From assembly GCF_037975245.1 (NCBI RefSeq), contig NC_092570.1:992501-1056500 (forward strand): a DNA stretch of 64,000 nucleotides. The letters are read 5' to 3'. Both the position numbers and the translations under genes were made by a program. Source of the stretch: Apostichopus japonicus (Eukaryota; Echinodermata; Holothuroidea; Aspidochirotida; Stichopodidae). Below the pieces are notes generated by a model that made no database searches, was not told the origin of the DNA, and was given only the letters and a program-made list of their open reading frames with translations. Position 1 is the first letter of the stretch; every line of letters begins with the position of its first letter. Positions 308-47,758 of the stretch are shown one piece after another.

Positions 308-2159
308 TGGTCAGAGGTGGTATATGCAGCATATCACAACTTCATTTTGACAAAGCAATGCAACGTGTAAACAAAGACAGCCGATCGTACGATCACTTTA
401 CAGAAGCATAACGAAAATGTAACCGGAAATCGAAGGAATGTGCGCAAAATAAAGTACATAGTATATAGGTATACTGAAACGCCTTTGTCTGTATAGGCCT
501 ACATTGCATTAATCTATACAGGCGTACATTCATAAAGTGATTATCTCGCGACGGCCTCATTCCCGGTTGTTGTGACGTACAAAACGTTTTCTTTGTCATA
601 TCCGTATAATGTATACTAGTATACGACTTGGTCGACTTGAGCTTCGCGAATTTCAATTTTCTTCTCGTTTTACGACCTCGCTAAACTGTCGCTGGACGTT
701 TTCAAGTCTATTTAGGCAAACATGCCATTTCTCCGGGTCAAAATACATTCACGTGTACGATGTGCGTACCCCCCCCCCACCCCCCACCACACCCGTTGCC
801 ACAACTGACTACTCTTTCCCTCTCTCCTATCACCGTCCAACCGTCAAAAATTTACAAGTACAGTCAGTGGCGGTTCACTGACAGGTCTGTGGCTTACAAG
901 TTGGAGGGGGGGGGGGGAGGTGGAGAGGGCAAGGGGTCGGAATTTGACATATACATTTTAAGATAAAATCCTAATTTTCGAGTTACACCGACCGGATGTT
1001 GTGTTGCAGTGTTTCTCTCACCAATAACAATGCATACAAAACTTCGGAAGTATTCGGTCTCTCATAGGAAGTCTTCGTTTTCAATAATCGGTCTTCGGTA
1101 TAACACTATATCGTATTGCTTACCATAATAAATATTCATGACTTATCTTTAAACCGGTTATTCCCTCGGTAACCTCGTCAATAAACAAGGGCAGCCGTTC
1201 ATACTGAGTATGTCCTCTTTGATATACTAGGTCAATAATAATGAAAATTCTCAAGTACAGGAACCTTGTTCAGACATGCATGTGTACCTTTCAAATATAG
1301 AAGCGTATTTACTGCCCATACACCGCCGACTACATATAGGCCTATGCCTCCTACGGAGCAGTTGAAGTTCCATCGCTGATATCGTATATTATAACGGATA
1401 TCCCGAAGCTGGCAGTAAATTGAAAAAATAATAATATATTGAAGAGAACAATATTCCACACACAGTTAGCTGAAAAGCCCTTCTCAATATGTTCTCCCTA
1501 ACTCGAGTAATGTATGGTTCACTGAATCAGGGAAACGAAATCAAAACTGTTTTTGGCTGACTGACTGAACCTTCAATTCGACTCGAGGAATTATTCAATT
1601 ATCGTCCAGGAAGTAGAACACAGTGGATGGTCTGTTTTGTCATCAGGATCAATGTTCATCAACAGTATTACGGTACTTAGGATATTTTTTATTATTAATT
1701 CCGTATTTGATTAGCTGTCAATATTTGCATGTATATTATCAGTATTTCAGCAAAATGCGATTTTTTGTTGTTGATTTTTATCTGTCGATAAGTGATAACA
1801 ATATTATCGTGAAAAACAAAAGCCATTTTCAGCTGAATTGCCCTGATTATGACATCATTCATAGGCTCTTGCCAAATTCATATAAAAAAATATTTCAATT
1901 CCTGCCGACAGGAATGCATTTAACAAAATTCATAATCACTTTATTATACTTATCTAAGTTTTCAACTTTGTCACGACAAATGGAAAACTTGGAACTTTAT
2001 TGATCGTGTTAATGAACAGATGACAAAAATCACTGTTTATACACTCTTCATTCTAAAGATTGAGAATTTACCCTTTAACCGGTAAATTCAATCTTATCAC
2101 AGTCGTGCACTGCCACTTAGTGTTGTTCCTATAGAAGAGCTTACAAAATGCTTATCCCC

Positions 2160-2486
2160 GAGTTCATCCCCTACCTAACCCCTTCTCCTACCTAACCCCT
2201 TCTCCTATCAAACCCCTTCTCCTACCAAACCCCTTCTCCTACTTAACCCCTTCCCCAACCTAACCCCTTCCCCTACCTAACCCTTTCCCCTACCTAACCC
2301 CTTCCCGTACCTAACCCCTTCCCCAACCTAACCCCTCCCCCTACTTAACCCCTTCACCTATACCTTACCCCTTCCTACCTAATCCCTTTCACCTAACAAA
2401 CCCCTTCCAACCTAACCTTCCTAACCCCTTCCTACCTCACCCCTTCCCCCTAACTAACCCCTTCCCCTTCCTAACCCCTTCCCCTA
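2160..2486 (+). repeat. C-rich minisatellite, TAACCCC-containing 16-18 bp units
   Basis: Degenerate head-to-tail units of the form CTAACCCCTTCCCCTAC fill this stretch with near-total strand asymmetry: C-rich on plus, G-rich on minus. The minus strand repeats GGGGTTAGG, which resembles but is not a TTAGGG telomere array. The G runs could form quadruplexes. Confidence 0.9.
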
Positions 2487-3452
2487 TAATTGCGAACTAA
2501 CTGATAAGTTTAAACAGCTCTTAGTCTAAAACTGATTATTTAGGGTATATGCTTTCGTTAGTATTCTCAATGCATTGGCAACACTCTTGTACATACGCGT
2601 ACAACTTTATGGTTTCTCAATGCATTGACAACACTTTTGTATACGCCTAAAACTTTATGGTTTCGAGTCAACAAAGCATTCCATACAAACAATAGTTAAA
2701 ACCAGAAAACGAAAACGTTTAGTGGTGCCGAGGCCCAAACATATTCATAGTGTGGTAAGCCATACATGTTAATATTTATGAACCAAACTGAAGAGGATAA
2801 TATATTGACTAATGCGGCAATATGCAAACCAAGGTACCGCGAATCAGTTATCATGTTGACAAAGTCTATTTATTGACATAGTAAAAAAAAAAACAGATAC
2901 ATGCATGAATATTAATGAGTTGAAATTTTATGATATCATAATCATGTGTCTATACTTACATTGTATTATCCAAGTACAAGTTTTAAGCTAATTAGACATA
3001 CGATTTTAGAGATATCTGTTTAAGAATTTGTATGTTCACTGATTAATATTCATGATATGACAAAACAACAACACGGTTGATTATTTGCATGTCGTGTGAC
3101 AAATCTAATATGCAAAGAATGAAAACATTTAGAACATTTGGTTCTTGTCTTGTGTTAAAAAGCATTTTGCACCATTTGAGATAACCTTGAAGCTCGGAGA
3201 GTGAAAACTGATAAGGGCCTGCTTGGGTGTGCTTAAAGCAAGACTATCAACTGTTTGAAGCATATTTCATTGCCTATATGACTGTATGTTTGTTGAAGAC
3301 CTATATATCCCCTTCAAAAAACTAAACTAAACTGAACTCGACCAAACTATGTTCACCAAAAGAAAACCATATGGCATTGCGGAAATCACATTGCATTAAT
3401 TGTAGCTTAATGTTTAAAAGGTTTTCAGACTTTGACAAATGTTGAACTCATG

Positions 3453-3465
3453 TGACCTTTGACCC
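3453..3465 (-). promoter_or_regulatory. DR1-type hexamer pair
   Basis: Reverse complement GGGTCAAAGGTCA is two nuclear-receptor half-sites with one base between them. It lies in a dispersed repeat, so function is unproven. Confidence 0.4.
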
Positions 3466-3598
3466 CTACCAATTTCAATATCGTTCTTGCACTCACTTAG
3501 CTGGATCTATACATACTAAGTATGAAGTTCAAAACATGTTTTCTTGCGTTATTGTGTTTACAATATTTACAGACTTTGACGTTAATGTTGACCGCAAG

Positions 3599-3611
3599 TG
3601 ACCTTTGACCT
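3599..3611 (-). promoter_or_regulatory. Perfect DR1 (AGGTCA A AGGTCA)
   Basis: Reverse complement AGGTCAAAGGTCA is an exact DR1, the consensus for RXR- or HNF4-type receptors. It lies within dispersed family A. Binding is not shown. Confidence 0.45.
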
Positions 3612-4138
3612 CCACCAATTTCAATCGGGTTCTTATACTCACCAAACTGGATCTGTATACCATGACCAGACTTTGACCTATGTTGACCCGAAATTGCACA
3701 TCACAGAAAGGATTGGGTTCTTGTACTCAATAAGACGCCTCCACATACCAAGTATAAAGTTAATCCACCATGAACGATTTGAGTAACGGTGTTTACAAGC
3801 GAGTGCCACAGACACACATAAATACACACGCACACTTGTACACAAATATACACACACACCCTCAACATCGCATAGTTTTCTTTTACCTCCGACAAGGAAT
3901 CAAATAGAATATACCCAATTATAACAATCTTCCAGTCATTGCTTCTTTGGTATTGTGTTTTGATGACCACAATGCGCGTCCGTAGGTTTATGATTGCTTC
4001 CGATTGCTACAGTTGTTATTAATATATTAGCTTTGGATACCGTTAAAATTGTTCCGTCCGTTTTAGAGTCATTCAACTTAATGTGAAGGACTCAAATATT
4101 GGGTATAACGGAAGATATGACTCAATACCAAAGAAAGG

Positions 4139-4622
4139 TACGGTATACCGCCAGTGGCAGTGCAGGGAAAGAAAGGGCGGTATACCGCCAGTGGCAGTGC
4201 AGGGAAAGAAAGGGCGGTATACCGCCAGTGGCAGTGCAGGGAAAGAAAGGGCGGTATACCGCCAGTGGCAGTGCAGGGAAAGAAAGGGCGGTATACCGCC
4301 AGTGGCAGTGCAGGGAAAGAAAGGGCGGTATACCGCCAGTGGCAGTGCAGGGAAAGAAAGGGCGGTATACCGCCAGTGGCAGTGCAGGGAATGAAAGGGC
4401 GGTATACCGCCAGTGGCAGTGCAAGGAAAGAAAGGGCGGTATACCGCCAGTGGCAGTGCAGGGAAAGAAAGGGCGGTATACCGCCAGTGGCAGTGCAGGG
4501 AAAGAAAGGGCGGTATACCGCCACTGGCAGTGCAGGGAATGAAAGGGCGGTATACCGCCAGTGGCAGTGCAAGGAAAGAAAGGGCGGTATACCGCCAGTG
4601 GCAGTGCAGGGAAAGAGAGAGA
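4139..4622 (+). repeat. 37-bp satellite array, 13 copies
   Basis: Units of 37 bp start at 4141 and every 37 bases to 4585. Each contains the 14-bp palindrome GGCGGTATACCGCC and AGTGGCAGTGCAGGGAAAG. Copies are almost identical. A GAATG variant followed by a GCAAGG variant occurs twice, 148 bp (four units) apart, so a block of four was duplicated. Because 37 is not a multiple of 3 and the unit lacks stops, long frames open on both strands; they are artefacts. Confidence 0.97.
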
Positions 4623-5202
4623 GGAAGTACCGCAGTAAAACACATTGCAACATACTCATCTATAACTATGTCAGTTCATTGGTATTAATTATTGCTTAAT
4701 TATCGATTGTTGTTTATATACGCTATATACGACTGGGAAAAATACTATACGTAAATTAAAAAAGAATCGAAACCTAATCGATAAGTATGAGCGAGAGATG
4801 TAGATATAAGTTGTTATTGTATGAGATTATTTAGACAATTGTCTGCGAGATAAGAAGAAAATAAGCTGCTAGAAGTAAACAAAGATCCTTATAAAGATCC
4901 TCGATAAGGCAGTGGAGATAGGAAAATGTGTGTCAGCGAGGAACGAAGCAAAGGGTGGCGCACAGAGTCGGTTGATCTGGCATGGCAAATAAATGAAAAA
5001 TGTTTCAGGTCAGAAAATACATAGGCCTATTGATACAGTGTTAGATTTACGGACTTTAATTTTTTTTATGATGGAAGTACGCTTCATTCGTCACTCTGCT
5101 AAGATAACCTTCCAAAACCCACTCACCGACATCTCTTTCCGGCAAATTTCGTGTTCCGTCCCAATGTGTATGTCGAAGTATTTATAAACCATCAGACTAG
5201 AG

Positions 5203-5400
<198 letters not shown>

Positions 5401-19089: not shown

Positions 19090-19925
19090 TCAAATAAGGA
19101 AGATTTGTAGCAGTGTCTGGAAGCAACACCAATGTCATAGTAAACCGCGCGGCAGGCTTTACACGTCGCCATACCGTACGTGTTTATCGTAACAACATCA
19201 CCATACCAGTATGAACCAAATGTTACGCAAAGCCCCGCCCATTAATTGATATTCATGAGAACCAAGAACAATAGGGCACATCTACTCATCATATGGCATC
19301 TATCTACCAAGTATGGCATTGATTCAACTTGTGTTTGTTGAGATTTCGTCTTTACAAGCTGTGTTCGACGATTTTCCATTAAGCCCCAGACACTCATGAA
19401 TATTAATGAAGAAAATATTGTTGTTTGCAAAGAACACGTACTTACTATGTAGTTATACATCACCATGCCAAGTATGAACTAAATCGGACATGCGATGAGG
19501 AGATATTGACATTTGAAGAAGTTTATGTCAAGCCCCGCCCACTCATTAATATAGATGAGGACGAAAAACAACAGGGCACATATACACGTCATAGGGCATC
19601 ACTTACTAAGTATGAAATTGATTCACCTTTGGTTGTTGACACTCGGATAAATTTACACATCATGGGGTATTCCTACCTACCAAATATGACATTAATTCAA
19701 CTAATTGTGGTTGTTGAGATATCGTGTTTACAAGCTAGCAGTGACACACATATACCCAGACACACGCAAACTTATTTTCTATTTTATTAGCTACAACCGA
19801 TTCCATCCGTCTGCCTGGACAAACGATGAATATTGTTCCCTATTGTTTGACAACTGGTGGCAGGTATTTCTGTTGTCCCATGTCACCAGTTGTAAGGCCT
19901 AGACATGTACACACACACGCACGAA
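19090..19925 (+). repeat. Dispersed repeat family B, copy 2
   Basis: The longer copy, in opposite orientation to 15010-15440. It is built from related sub-units with AAGCCCCGCCCA, ATTCATGAG/AATATAGATGAGG and GTTGTTGAGATATCGTG blocks. The open frames inside are incidental. Confidence 0.8.
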
Positions 19926-41500: not shown

Positions 41501-43980
41501 CTACACTGTAAAACCCAACACGTCAAGACAACTTGAAAAAGTCGAGGTAACCCGCTGCCTTAACTTTTGTAAGTTCACTCTACTAACCCAGCCACTCCAT
41601 AAGTAAGACTTGACAGTAGTGGTTACAACCAACTCACTGGTTTTACTTTGTTACACTTTATGTTCATCAGTTGTGGCAACAGATATCAGCAAAGTCCAAC
41701 AAATTTAATCTTTATCTTTTTTTGAGAAAAAGCTGGGCAAGTTATGGTAACTAAAACTTTAGAGCTGATACAGCATAGCCTTTCCTCTTAACACTGACAA
41801 GACCAATTCAAGTTTTGCCCACTTTCAATTATCTCTAGAGTTAACTTTGAATATTTAAGTTGACGCTACTTGGTATATTCTAGGCAGCGGGTTACCTCAA
41901 TATAATTGAGTTATGACAACAGACAATTTTAGTAAAGAAAACTATATATTGCTAAGTTAACAACACAACTTTATTTTCAACCTCTGAAGCCAGTAACAAT
42001 GTACTTTAACAAGGAAATAGAAGAAATAAACGCATAAAAAGTGCCTAATACTTTTATCGGTGGAAACAACGCCAAAATGTATCAATAGAGAGATACAGAA
42101 GAACATACTGCAGTCATTCATTTCCATGATTCATTTAAGATAGTAAATACCAATTTCAAGTGCATGTGTTCTTTGGTATGAAATACAGAAGTAAAATTAA
42201 TATGTTATGGCTGCTGGAAATAACCAATGTTGTTAAAAGTCAAGAAGTATGAAGTAACCACTCCTCTCAGCCATTTACAATATGATTGTTTTAGCTAAAG
42301 ACTTTAATTTTGTGGCAAATATTTATATAGGTGAATCATAATTACATCATCATGTAAATAGGCAACGATGCTCAAAACACCAATGTTTCATTAACTAAAG
42401 GAATGCACTTAAAGTTGTCGATAGCAAAGCTATAGTGATGCCACCAATTGTTCTTGCATCTGTTTTTATGACAAAGACTAGTTATGATGATAAGAGCATT
42501 GTTCAATTGTGAAAACCAAGCATAGAACAGGAACTTCATCTTTTTAATGATATGAAAAATTTCTTTTCAGGATATTTTGATCCCTTATATTAAAAATTAC
42601 CATTAAAAACTAGTTCCCATGAAAGCTAAGGATATGTTTGGGGAATCACATACAACCTTTCATCCTAGAAAGGGGTATATGAAATCAAGCCAGGGTTCAG
42701 CAAATAGCCCCTGTTTGGTCCTTTGTACTCAAAAACTTACATTTTAATCATAAGATAAAGCAACTCTGTAAAACTCTTTTAATAATCTGAGAGGAAGCAC
42801 AACAGTCTTTGCTCATGAAAACCTGCATGCAAAGTAAAGTCATCATGAAAAATGTTTGTTTTTTAGATCTTTACAGCAAAGCACTTTATTTTTACCCATT
42901 TGGAACACAAAATACTTTGAAAGAATTCCATTGTCAATCCCTGTCTTTTGCCAGTTTTTGGATTCTTCAAACACTTGTATTACTGTGATTTGAATAGTTT
43001 CATCACAACATAGATATCTGATGCATTTACCTTTATCAGTATATATAATATTAATACTGACTTCCTGTAAATGATTTCACAGTACATCCCTCATTGGGCT
43101 CATTAGGATGAACATGTTTGTAAGTTCAAATTTTGCAAATTATTTCTGAAACATATACTATGATACCAATCACATTGATGCAAGCAAGCTGATAGAAATT
43201 CTCCATAACTAAGCAAGTACAAAGTGATTATTTGACAAACAATGGCTCTGAATAAAAATGAAAATGTAAACTAGAGTTTAAGCCTGATAGAATTTTTTTC
43301 AGACATTTTTGGACCCTTCCAACTCACTAGAGGTGTGGGCTATTATGTCATTTCTCTGCCTGAAGAAAACATCGGCATTTGATAAAATTAACTTTGTTTC
43401 GCTCTTTGATTATTATAATGATTATTATTAGTGCCTATTCACCCAATCAACAATTCTTCATAAGTTGAAATGTAAAAGCAGAGAAACAATTTCCCATGGC
43501 ATCCTGTTCCATATTACAATTTGTTTCACCACATTTTCAAGATTTACCAAGAAACAAGATAATTACCAGTCAAATGGAGTTTTGCAATATCTCTCTGGAC
43601 CCCACATGAACTATTTAAACAATTAAGATGCATGATAACTATGTATGTTTATAATGGAATGTAATGCCACAGGCATGGTTTCAAATTGTTAAGAGGGTTA
43701 TTTAAGTAGCCTGACGGTTTATTTTTTGTTGATAAATTACACTAAAACAGCAATATATTAACTTCTTTAACTAAAGAATATTATTGTTTAAGCTGTCATT
43801 AGCAAAAATATTCAGCAATCCCTTTTTCTTGAATCTATATCCAGGACACAATTTGTACTTACGATGGATCAAATAAACCAATGGTGTTGTTAACATATAC
43901 AGTAGAATGCAAAAATGAAACAAACCAAAATTAAAGTAAATTTCCTCCAAGGTGGTAATAAAAACAGTGTAAGAATTTTG

Positions 43981-44106
43981 ACCAAAGGTGACCATATTTG
44001 AATTTCTGATATATTTGGGGCAAATATAGCATACCTTTATGCTACCAAAGGTGACCATATTTGAATTTCTGGTATATTTGGGGCAAATACAGCATACCTT
44101 TATGCT
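43981..44106 (-). repeat. 63-bp tandem duplication, in frame
   Basis: A 63-bp unit beginning ACCAAAGGTGACCATATTTG occurs at 43981-44043 and again at 44044-44106 with few changes. The period is 21 codons, so the minus-strand frame reads two near-identical peptides (IKVCCICPKYTRNSNMVTFG and a variant). Whether it is translated is unknown. A diverged copy of this sequence lies at 50020-50125 in the opposite orientation. Confidence 0.8.
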
Positions 44107-44296
44107 AGTTTTGCATGTAATATTGTACACACAATGCAAAATGTAACTGTTAAATTGTCACAAGCCTCAAGGTAATTTCTAATAAAAAGTATGTACTCTT
44201 ATTTACTGTATTTTAAGAATTGCTAAAACAAGAATATAGATGAATGAGCTCTTTTATTATCTGATCATACCATACAGAATGTGCTATATAGCCTAC

Positions 44297-46000
44297 CCCT
44301 GTCTCAAAGTGAAACAAGTTCTGAAACTTTTGTCTGGTTGACAATATTTCCACCATTCTGTCAAGGTGTTGGTCTAGTGAAGAAAAGAAAGTGCTTTCCA
44401 GAGCAAGGTTGCTTAACCTCCAAAACTCAGCCTTCAACTGAAAGAATAAAATGAGAAATGTAGAAAACAATATTAAGTTAAGTTTGCCCTATGAAAAGAA
44501 GATGGCTCCCCTTTGCCAGGTAGCAATATTATAGAAAGCCATTTCCAAGGTGAGAGTATAAATGCAACTTGTAAGTGCATTTGTCGATTGTAGTCAACTG
44601 CCAATCGGAATCCTGGGTAAGACATATAATATACAGTTATTAACTAATTTTACCGGTATTTAGTGCAGATATTAGTTACCAAAAACAATAGTAATGGTGA
44701 CTGACATCCATGGGTTAAAAAATACATCAACCGGCTAATTACTGATCAGATCACCCTGCTGCACCATAGACCACATACTTTGTATCTCTTTTTTTTCTGT
44801 ATTTTACCAAAATTTTATACATAAGAAATAAAACATCTCTAACACTAATCACCCACTGTGATTACTTTTACTACTCATTATACACTGCAGCTACTATATC
44901 ATGAAAAATACAAAACAAAATGTCCAATTTTAGTGAAGGAGACAGCACCCCCAATAAGTTAATGAACAATTAAGGAACTTACTTCACTGGGAAGAAATAA
45001 GGCGGGCATCTTCTACCATTTCGTTGACGGCTGGCGCATTTAAGACCAGCTCCTGTCTACGGTATGCATAGGTCCTTATCATCATTTTTTAAATCTTGTC
45101 CATGTCCCTGTTTCTCTTTTGAACTTCTGTGCAAAAGTTTTCTCAATAAGACTCCATACTTGTTGCATCTTCTCCAATTGGAATGTCTGGTAAGTAATTT
45201 ATTTCTGCTCTCTTTGGTTTTTTGTGTTTTGATGAAGACGTTCCAGGGTAGGAGCACTTCCTTGAGATAACGTTTAGTTCCATGCAGTCCAACTTTCTCA
45301 TTTTTGCTCTAAGATTACCCATCTTAAATTTGATGCTGTTAAGCATTTCATCATAGCCAGAGGAACTTCCCTTTTCAGCCAAACAAGGATAGGTCCTCAT
45401 GATTGCTTTTGCTACTTCAGTGTATTCCATGTGTGTTGGATAAGCTTTGTACTCCCAAATGCGGTTAGCAATCGCATCAAGGAACTGACTTTTGTGATCT
45501 TTGCTTAAGTCAAGGTGCTTCTTTCCTTCTGACAGATACTTTCTATTACCGTCTTCAAAAACCAGTTCCAGCTCTGGGCCTACTTTAGGTACCTGAAAGA
45601 CCTCTGGCCAACACCCTTGTCTCAGTTTGGCTTCTACCGACTGTATGTCATCATTTGAACTAACACTCATAGTGTCATGTGAGCTTCCGAACGAACCGAC
45701 AGATGACAGTGAGGGTGTACTACTCCAATAGCACTGATCTTCAGCAATGTCAGTGTATATCACTTGGACAGATGCACATGTCTCTGGTAAATCATTTGCA
45801 TTAGTCAGATTCACCATCTCACCGCCAAAGTCTGGATCAGCATATTGCAAAGTGAAACTGCCTTCAAGGCTTAACTTATCTTTCAAAGTTTCCATAAGGT
45901 TTTCAACAGACTCTGGACGTTGCTCAAGGGACACCTTCTGAATGTCCTTTGGTGACAACACTACCCTCAATTTGTACATAGTATCAATTTCTGATCAATC
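44297..46000 (-). pseudogene. Broken SAMD3-like gene with N-terminal PB1 domain, two exons visible
   Basis: Minus-strand exon 46000-44983 begins after a pyrimidine-rich acceptor (CTTTTCATGCATAG) and the ATG is at 45979. Residues 1-75 read as a PB1 domain (MYKLRVVLSP start, LQYADPDFGGEMVNLTNAND). A Ser-rich linker follows. Residues about 123-235 (CWPEVFQVP, IWEYKAYPTHMEYTEVAKAI, IKFKMGNLRAKMRKL) resemble the region of SAMD3-like proteins that are expanded in fish and invertebrates. The frame meets TGA at 45145-45143 but homologous-looking sequence continues in the same frame: KRNRDMDKI, a second stop TAA, then RTYAYRRQELVLNAPAVNEM. The frame then shifts where two bases seem lost, and MPALFLPSE leads to a strong GTAAGT donor at 44982. 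The next exon, 44437-44297, starts after TTCTTTCAG with LKAEFWRLSNLALESTFFSSLD, which continues the family pattern. The exon is 997 nt; adding 2 nt gives 999, which matches the phase-0 acceptor. Later exons were not found. The family name is from memory of motifs. Confidence 0.75.
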
Positions 46001-47758
46001 CTATGCATGAAAAGAGAACAATGTAAGGGAGTTAGAAGCTGGCTATATCGTTTCGTACACTCCCCTTAGAATTACAGTACTGTACCACATAGTAATATTT
46101 TAGCAGTAAGTGCAACAACCCATTCAGCTGCAGTATACCACATGTACTGCATAAATATGCAGTATGGCAGCTGATCTACTGTACATCTACTCTTAGCTAC
46201 TTGCATGGGTAGATATTTTGCATGTAAATGTCATCCAAGTACTGCATCTTTCAACGTTTAGTAAGGCTCATGCTTTATCACAGACAACTCAACTTAGGGT
46301 AACTCCTATTGTTCTTCATGTACAGTATATCTACAGAGTGTTTCAACACAACCACTTTAGCTTCTCTGATGGTGTAGGAAGTTAGAGGGTAGTAATCTTT
46401 AAGATTACCTGGACAAACTACTTGATCATAGTTTTCAGTCTCTGTCACTTTGTATGCTCCAATGTGGCTTTGAAAATAGATTTATGCAATTTTACTACAA
46501 GCCATCCATTGTTTTTATCAACAATAATAGTTTGTATATTTGCTAGTACAGAATGACCACTATCACTGCCAATCACAACAAACATATCTCTAAATTATAC
46601 CTCATTCAAATTTGCTAATCAGTACCATGTATTAACCACATGAGCTCATGCTGATGAACCGAATGTTTTACTCCTTTGTCTCACACTGCGTAACTGTTAA
46701 TGGTTAGGCCTATCTGTAAAGCTCTATAGCCTAACCTAATGCACAGCCTACGTTCAACGTGAAATGGAGCTTATAAATTTTTAGGCTAGGCTGTTGAAAT
46801 ATTTTGAATATTTCTAATCCAATTCAATCACGCATATAATTTCATGCTGCAAGTTTTAAACTTTGACTAATTTTAACAACATATTTCAGATTCAGTCGAA
46901 TCTTTGCGAATATCATTACTGTATTGAGCATTAATCATTCCAAATACGAACCGTAAATCATCCAAGACTTGGAAAAGCTGGCCCCTGACGTATGTTATCT
47001 ACTTAGTCGATATACGCGCGCGAGCGATCACTTACCGGTAATTTTGTTGCAAATACGCATAGTCTTCTCTTTCCAGTCGTTTTCATGTAGAAATGTTTTG
47101 ATACTCGACCATCACAAGTTGAAACAACGATATCTTCATACGTTGATCTACGTTTCCGCATAAAACTTACGTAAATCATGTTGTAACGCTTATTTTAACA
47201 TTATTGAGTCATCTTGACTGTCATAACCCTTGTTCAGAAAGCTCATCTACCGGTTGGGTTTTACAGTGTAGCATATTGTTTTGGTACTCGCCGAAAAGGA
47301 TTGTACCCGTACTCAAGCCCTTTTGGATAGGCCTACGTATAGACTGTAGACATGGCCGGACGGATTAACTTCGTTCACGGTTTTGAAATTAGCACAGGAA
47401 TCTAAAAGTAGGTAGGCTATGTTTGTGATGACATAATATTACACATTCATTTATGGAAATAACCTCCAAGTTACAAAACTCCCATAAAAAAAAAGATTAC
47501 CGGTTTATATAAGGGTTTTTTTTTTCCTGATGTTTGTCAAAATTTTGAGTTTCCCCAGGCCGCTTTGCCAAATTGGGCGTCTCTCCCTGCATGAGGTTCC
47601 CTTCCCCATGCATGGGAAAGGCAAATTTGTGGATCATGTTAGCTATAACGATAGGATTTTCAACGCAGTTTTGATCTGACAATACAATACGTTAAGTAAC
47701 CTATAACCTATATCTTCATTTAATTTTTAATAAACAAAGGACAAAACTACCCCTATTT

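Follow-up and report, generated by a model that had tools for sequence, protein, structure and literature searches.

A probably EnSpm/CACTA-type transposon with internal deletions in Apostichopus japonicus and its SAMD3-like second gene

Introduction

In the maize Spm element, the protein TNPA helps the TNPD transposase. Plant EnSpm/CACTA elements such as Spm are characterized by CACT-type ends, an aspartate-aspartate-glutamate (D-D-E) transposase with C(2)C and H(3)H motifs, a second protein and internally deleted copies, and each of these traits has a counterpart in the family of the DNA transposon described here, a 5,765-bp element at positions 41504-47268 of a 64,000-nucleotide stretch of the Apostichopus japonicus genome (GCF_037975245.1, NC_092570.1; the whole stretch is hereafter called the window). 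The element carries a putatively SAMD3-like gene, a provisional name already used in the first-pass annotation of the window. In all likelihood it is a deletion derivative of a two-gene EnSpm/CACTA-type cut-and-paste transposon with a PB1-like second protein. The family differs from plant CACTA elements in its ends (CACTG here, CACTA there), in its duplications (2 bp and TA-like here, 3 bp there), in having no dense subterminal repeat arrays, and in its second protein, which is TNPA in Spm and predicted to be PB1-like here.

Several other described systems come close. In specific families, the ORF2 protein aids excision and transposition (PMC4158355). Among animals, CACTA elements that duplicate 2 bp have been described (PMC1636069, PMC4298943), and those of the TRC group, SmTRC1 and Spongebob, share with our element animal hosts, 2-bp duplications, a CACTA-related transposase and a second product proposed to be TNPA-like (PMC1636069, PMC4298943). 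However, TRC ends start with CCC (PMC1636069) and ours with CACTG, and the SmTRC1 protein PrA is described as having no detectable relatives (PMC1636069), whereas the second gene here is conserved across families. The CMCT clade is described as having CA..TG ends, 2-5 bp duplications and the motif order found in our transposase (PMC12730594). One EnSpm-like element, ESTA, has TA duplications and a CMCT-type transposase (PMC12730594), but it is fungal and carries TET/JBP, and the likeness is one of description only. Fungal IS3EU elements, with TET/JBP and alpha-kinase genes, likewise hold conserved extra genes in fixed order (PMC12730594), yet their duplications are 6 bp long, against 2 bp in all 16 copies read at both ends here.

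Results

The first-pass annotation had proposed a transposon with exact 19-bp inverted ends flanked by CAT. Exact 19-nt inverted arms are indeed present at 41501-41519 and 47253-47271, both adjoined by CAT, and the arm pattern, with up to three mismatches tolerated, occurs at these two sites of the window and at no other, with 0.02 expected from shuffles. The inverted end proper, however, is the 16-nt sequence CACTGTAAAACCCAAC at 41504-41519 (plus strand) and 47253-47268 (minus strand). All 16 copies that were read at both ends have a perfect 2-bp direct repeat outside CACTG...CAGTG, and therefore the CAT beside the arms is there by chance. The repeated dinucleotide is TA in 13 of these copies and AA, TT and TG in one each; since it varies and repeats directly, it is a target site duplication and not part of the end. 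In the window this duplication is TA at 41502-41503 and 47269-47270. The arms appeared inverted through it because TA is a palindrome, and the outer C/G match of the 19-nt arms is coincidental.

We searched the host genome (671.6 Mb in 35 contigs; the window is positions 992501-1056500 of contig 10) with the left 200 bp of the element region and obtained 34 places, 27 of them at 95% identity or more including the window itself. Besides the window these comprise 26 places at 95-99%, one at 86%, one 81-bp piece at 93% and five at 76-80%, the likeness of the last five being confined to the end region. The 26 close matches start at query bases 46-54, which is the element end itself. Twenty of the 26 were fetched together with about 1 kb of outer flank and 8-9 kb of inward sequence, and the element was present in all 20; 15 of them and the window copy were readable at both ends, with pairwise identities of 96.2-99.6% (mean 97.6%). 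The copy closest to the window element is L011 (99.3%), and a tree from the first 2.4 kb groups the window copy with L011 and L021. The exact 16-nt end has 54 matches in the genome (26 forward, 28 reverse), against 0 for a reversed control, and these resolve by hand into 24 element pairs and six single ends. The ends are thus paired elsewhere, and the fetched copies share the interior of the window element.

Three insertions (L009, L014 and L021) sit in repeats of which an unoccupied related copy exists. At the L009 site, one neighbouring satellite unit is uninterrupted and has TA once, and another three have AA there. The empty counterpart of L014 is a repeat in L007, about 1.3 kb from the same insertion (~80% over 216 columns, single TA), and that of L021 lies in the window itself at 19470-19576 (~73% over 113 columns, single TA). 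These empty counterparts have a single TA, not the single CAT for which the first-pass annotation had suggested looking. Together with the paired ends and the 2-bp duplications, they bear out the first-pass proposal of a DNA transposon.

Some copies have features of their own. L009 (1-988 and the right flank) lies in a satellite array with ~0.27-kb units that differ by a 9-bp sub-repeat. L024 (C19:2314400-2326305) is split by a ~6-kb Gypsy-like long terminal repeat retrotransposon with one long open frame, and L022 (C7:3648897-3658521) by a 4.4-kb insertion whose ends are inverted ACTCTTAA-like sequence.

Two long copies were found between end matches, of 11,290 bp on C19 and 11,170 bp on C17, 99.4% identical across the 8.9 kb read in both. 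Each holds an uninterrupted 905-codon frame, on the same strand as the SAMD3-like gene and upstream of it. In the C17 frame, of which 886 residues were read (all but the beginning; numbering from the first codon read), inspection by eye identified a predicted catalytic D-D-E core at D354 (MDEFEV), D446 (SSDNLG) and E704 (RFEAKH), with C(2)C at 468-471 (CRAC) and H(3)H at 680-684 (HFIEH) both between the second D and the E; one C2H2-like motif lies at 70. The DUF4218 profile aligned to an H-H-E stretch of the long-copy frame with E 0.0058 and 16.9 bits, against a cut-off of 27. From 370 candidates in the host genome we scored 93 related transposase places, and two 877-codon relatives among them reached 27.5 bits for Transposase_21, against a cut-off of 28.6. 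With the transposase as query, a PDB sequence search gave no match, and a scan of prokaryote genomes gave 12 pattern matches with no relative among them; scans of viral contigs with it and with a separate transposase peptide gave nothing usable. The first-pass suggestion of a new transposon type is thus not upheld, since the long copies encode an EnSpm/CACTA-like transposase.

Two further sets of transposase-related sequences were seen in this genome. A related family of 868-872 codons at 17 places (for example C12:33592791-33594125, C7:7128741-7130075 and C9:35533006-35534340) has one in-frame TAG in 16 places and two in one, which could mean that an inactive master copy multiplied, that a small intron is present or that the stop is read through; the SAMD3-like parts of this family are found ~4-7.4 kb downstream. 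Other DUF4218 proteins exceed the Pfam cut-off, many of them with 699-701 codons (C17:24933675, C23:1024495, C4:21350906 and 13 further places), and this separate set probably represents ordinary CACTA-type elements.

Compared with the long form, the window copy lacks long positions ~2036-5319, and a second large loss runs from ~7850 towards the right end. It has in turn a block of ~440 bp (42148-42586, approximate limits) that is found in the short copies aligned and in neither long copy, either inserted in the short lineage or deleted from the long one. The first-pass annotation had recognised no transposase, yet the last ~90 codons of one remain at 46278-46594 (minus strand), matching the end of the long-copy transposase but one base short and hence out of frame. 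The large internal transposase deletion has its approximate scar at 46592-46595, where the long-form alignment ends (~7850). A 48-codon segment at 47036-47179 (minus strand), running from an ATG to a GTAAGT donor, is probably the first exon of the transposase. The other internal deletion falls within 43930-44107, where 3.3 kb was lost together with the C-terminal exon of the SAMD3-like gene; this region includes a 63-bp duplication at 43981-44107, the one tandem array found inside the element.

A further deletion form was noted in at least six copies (L010, L013, L018, L019, L022 and L023), in which ~580 bp is gone within SAMD3-like exon 1. This form has itself multiplied, and deletion derivatives therefore keep being mobilised.

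The gene that the first-pass annotation had placed between the ends is present on the minus strand and is predicted to be spliced. Its exon 1 spans 44983-45979, with the ATG at 45979 and a GTAAGT donor after 44983; exon 2 begins at an acceptor and is given as 44357-44437, without an assigned 3' end, and is also present in the long copies. In the window, the frame of exon 1 stays open over 278 codons, as far as 45146, followed by a TGA (45143-45145), a later TAA and a frameshift. All 18 short copies compared have the TGA straight after codon 278 and decay beyond it, and in L011 and L021 a stop falls at codon 250, behind a one-base loss. Exon 1 of the long copy L026 has an open frame of 341 codons. 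The C-terminal exon, of 110 codons, lies inside the 3.3 kb lost from the short copies.

The N-terminus of this protein is plausibly a PB1 domain (45740-45979, minus strand), as judged from structure prediction. Because the model of the 278-aa protein was too poor (predicted local distance difference test score, pLDDT, 41.8), the first 80 residues were modelled alone, with a pLDDT of 81.2 and a PB1-like (beta-grasp) predicted fold. The top Foldseek match of this model is the Raf Ras-binding domain (E 7.7e-4), followed by the PB1 domains of p40/p67phox, PKC iota, Par6 and NBR1 at template-modelling scores to the query of 0.62-0.70; ubiquitins are among the matches too. A Pfam scan of the SAMD3-like protein returned no PB1 match and, in the parts scanned, no SAM domain, and an NCBIfam search returned no match. 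The PDB sequence search with the exon gave nine matches, all at E 1.3 or above and none a relative, and viral contigs scanned with the exon and with the element end sequence yielded nothing usable.

We then compared the positions of SAMD3-like sequences with those of the transposases. The genome holds 78 matches to the window exon, 123 to the 341-aa body and 104 to the C-terminal exon, and within 15 kb downstream on the same strand the C-terminal exon is found at 42 and the body at 31 of the 93 transposase places (in the body count, short-copy matches of the window family were excluded and the two long copies kept). One or the other part lies downstream on the same strand at 49 of 93 places, in contrast to 0 of 93 in each of the three positions that are upstream or on the opposite strand, and to 0-2 per position in shifted controls (50, 100, 200 and 500 kb; reverse 50-200 kb). 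At all 24 places with both parts, the transposase comes first, then the body, then the C-terminus. Many of the linked transposases are only ~32-37% identical to that of the window family; copies within a family are not independent, and a manual grouping on frame length and identity gives at least ten families. Independently of the transposase matches, we compared by eye the positions of the left end and the C-terminal exon at the seven less similar left-end places: at four (two on C16, one each on C15 and C12) the C-terminal exon is matched ~1.8-2.4 kb inwards, on the strand expected for it, and at three (C19, the other on C15, C2) it is not. The SAMD3-like gene is a standing second gene of these elements and no chance passenger. 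Carriage by a transposon, the first-pass explanation for the multicopy state of SAMD3-like genes, holds in this genome.

Finally, we examined substitutions in exon 1. The short-form consensus and L026 differ by 10 synonymous and 4 non-synonymous changes (172 and 659 sites, respectively). For 17 short copies against L026, the per-site ratio of non-synonymous to synonymous differences (pN/pS) is 0.19, compared with 0.47 among the short copies themselves. The SAMD3-like protein remained under constraint in the lineage from which the copies arose, and we therefore argue that the gene serves the element.

Within the short form, exon 1 (window 45146-45979) is open up to the common TGA in most of the 18 short copies. 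Singletons in exon 1 of these 18 copies number 21 synonymous and 43 non-synonymous (ratio 0.53) and shared changes 6 and 13 (0.56); in the transposase remnant of 22 copies, singletons number 8 and 34 (1.15) and shared changes 2 and 7 (0.95). Production of a truncated PB1-like protein by the short form may continue, the ratios of 0.53 versus 1.15 being suggestive only.

Discussion

Taken together, the findings are very probably explained by the window element being an internally deleted, non-autonomous copy of a two-gene EnSpm/CACTA-like transposon, of neither the plant CACTA type nor the TRC type. The full element would measure ~11.2 kb and hold, from its right end inward, the D-D-E transposase and then the SAMD3-like gene on the same strand, both predicted to be spliced. 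The long-copy transposase would recognise the CACTG...CAGTG ends, excise the element and reinsert it at TA-like dinucleotides with duplication of 2 bp; the window element and other short copies, which keep both ends, could have been moved in trans. The SAMD3-like protein might help transposition, perhaps through PB1-driven assembly of the transposase complex, with TNPA of maize Spm and PrA of SmTRC1 as the nearest precedents. We consider a helper role an even call.

Several points weigh against this reading. Profile support for the superfamily is weak, DUF4218 and Transposase_21 both staying below their cut-offs for this clade, and the matches that do exceed them in the genome (16 for DUF4218, 15 for Transposase_21) all lie outside the 93 places. 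Dense subterminal repeats were not found in the element: repeated words are not above shuffles, and near the left end there is one exact 17-nt inverted pair (GAGGTAACCCGCTGCCT at 41544-41560, plus strand, with its partner arm at 41882-41898, minus strand). The long copies were read without their right-most ~0.9 kb, exon 1 of the long copy L027 has one TAG, and the two long copies differ in the SAMD3-like gene by one synonymous and three non-synonymous changes. At 44 of the 93 transposase places no SAMD3-like piece was found. Many C-terminal exon matches are weak alone, with E up to 3.5; they carry weight because their place relative to the transposase is fixed.

Among other explanations, the strongest is that the element belongs to a distinct CMC-like superfamily near EnSpm and not to EnSpm/CACTA itself. 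We regard this as unlikely, though it deserves serious weight: the profile matches are sub-threshold only, and CACTG ends, 2-bp TA-like duplications, the lack of plant-style subterminal repeats and a different second gene would all suit such a group. On the other side, CACTG...CAGTG in the 16 copies gives CA..TG termini, and these, the 2-bp duplication and the D-D-E core with C(2)C and H(3)H, as identified by eye, fit the CMCT clade in motif order and in its 2-5 bp duplications (PMC12730594), and 2-bp duplications have precedents among animal CACTA elements (PMC1636069, PMC4298943).

Capture of a host SAMD3-like gene by chance as cargo without a role for the transposon (a Pack-CACTA element), an option that the first-pass annotation had raised, appears improbable. 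It would sit well with a gene that is broken in the window copy and in the 18 short copies compared, and with short copies that spread without the SAMD3-like C-terminus. Yet the gene occupies the same place and strand behind the transposase at 49 of 93 places, with transposases only ~32-37% identical, the order is fixed wherever both parts occur (24 of 24), and exon 1 is constrained between subfamilies. That many diverged element families have the gene in the same position speaks against a single capture event.

Two independent miniature inverted-repeat transposable element (MITE) ends flanking an ordinary host gene, the other option raised at first and compatible with the window taken alone, are refuted by the pairing of ends across the genome (24 pairs by hand count), the same interior in 20 of 20 fetched copies, the 2-bp duplications and the empty counterparts, and retain hardly any probability. 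Just as negligible is an IS3EU/GingerRoot element with TA..TA termini (PMC10045372) and 6-bp duplications, to which the TA adjoining the ends would point, given that the dinucleotide varies (AA, TT, TG) and repeats directly, that no 6-bp duplication occurs in 16 copies, and that the transposase has C(2)C and H(3)H between D and E. IS3EU had been our first suspicion from the TA-CACTG ends and was ruled out by the 2-bp, variable, direct duplications in other copies.

If a two-gene EnSpm/CACTA-type element is the right description, a puzzling multicopy 'host gene' family becomes a candidate for the second gene of transposons, and genome annotations would have to be corrected. Animal CACTA elements would gain a conserved partner protein, where the second product proposed for SmTRC1 had no detectable relatives (PMC1636069). 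It also makes possible a direct test of a PB1-like protein aiding a transposase on CACTG ends. More tentatively, and with considerable doubt, there could be a large animal CACTA lineage of two-gene design in which the SAMD3-like PB1 protein is an obligate assembly factor, the 'SAMD3-like' genes of fish and marine invertebrates being mostly transposon genes and single-copy SAMD3 possibly domesticated.

In the literature, a search joining PB1 domain, DNA transposon and terminal inverted repeat led to the MUGB (MUSTANG) genes. Among papers joining SAMD3 with 'transpos', none concerns transposon carriage as far as titles and the openings of abstracts tell, and for EnSpm, CACTA transposon or CMC-EnSpm none with SAMD3 was among the matches listed. 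No paper naming both SAMD3 and EnSpm was found; Repbase lay outside this search, and an entry with this second protein may therefore already exist there.

Additional observations

The element interior is AT-richer overall than its flanks. Elsewhere in the window, a 37-bp unit is repeated in tandem at 4130-4616, in 13 copies with 97% matches.

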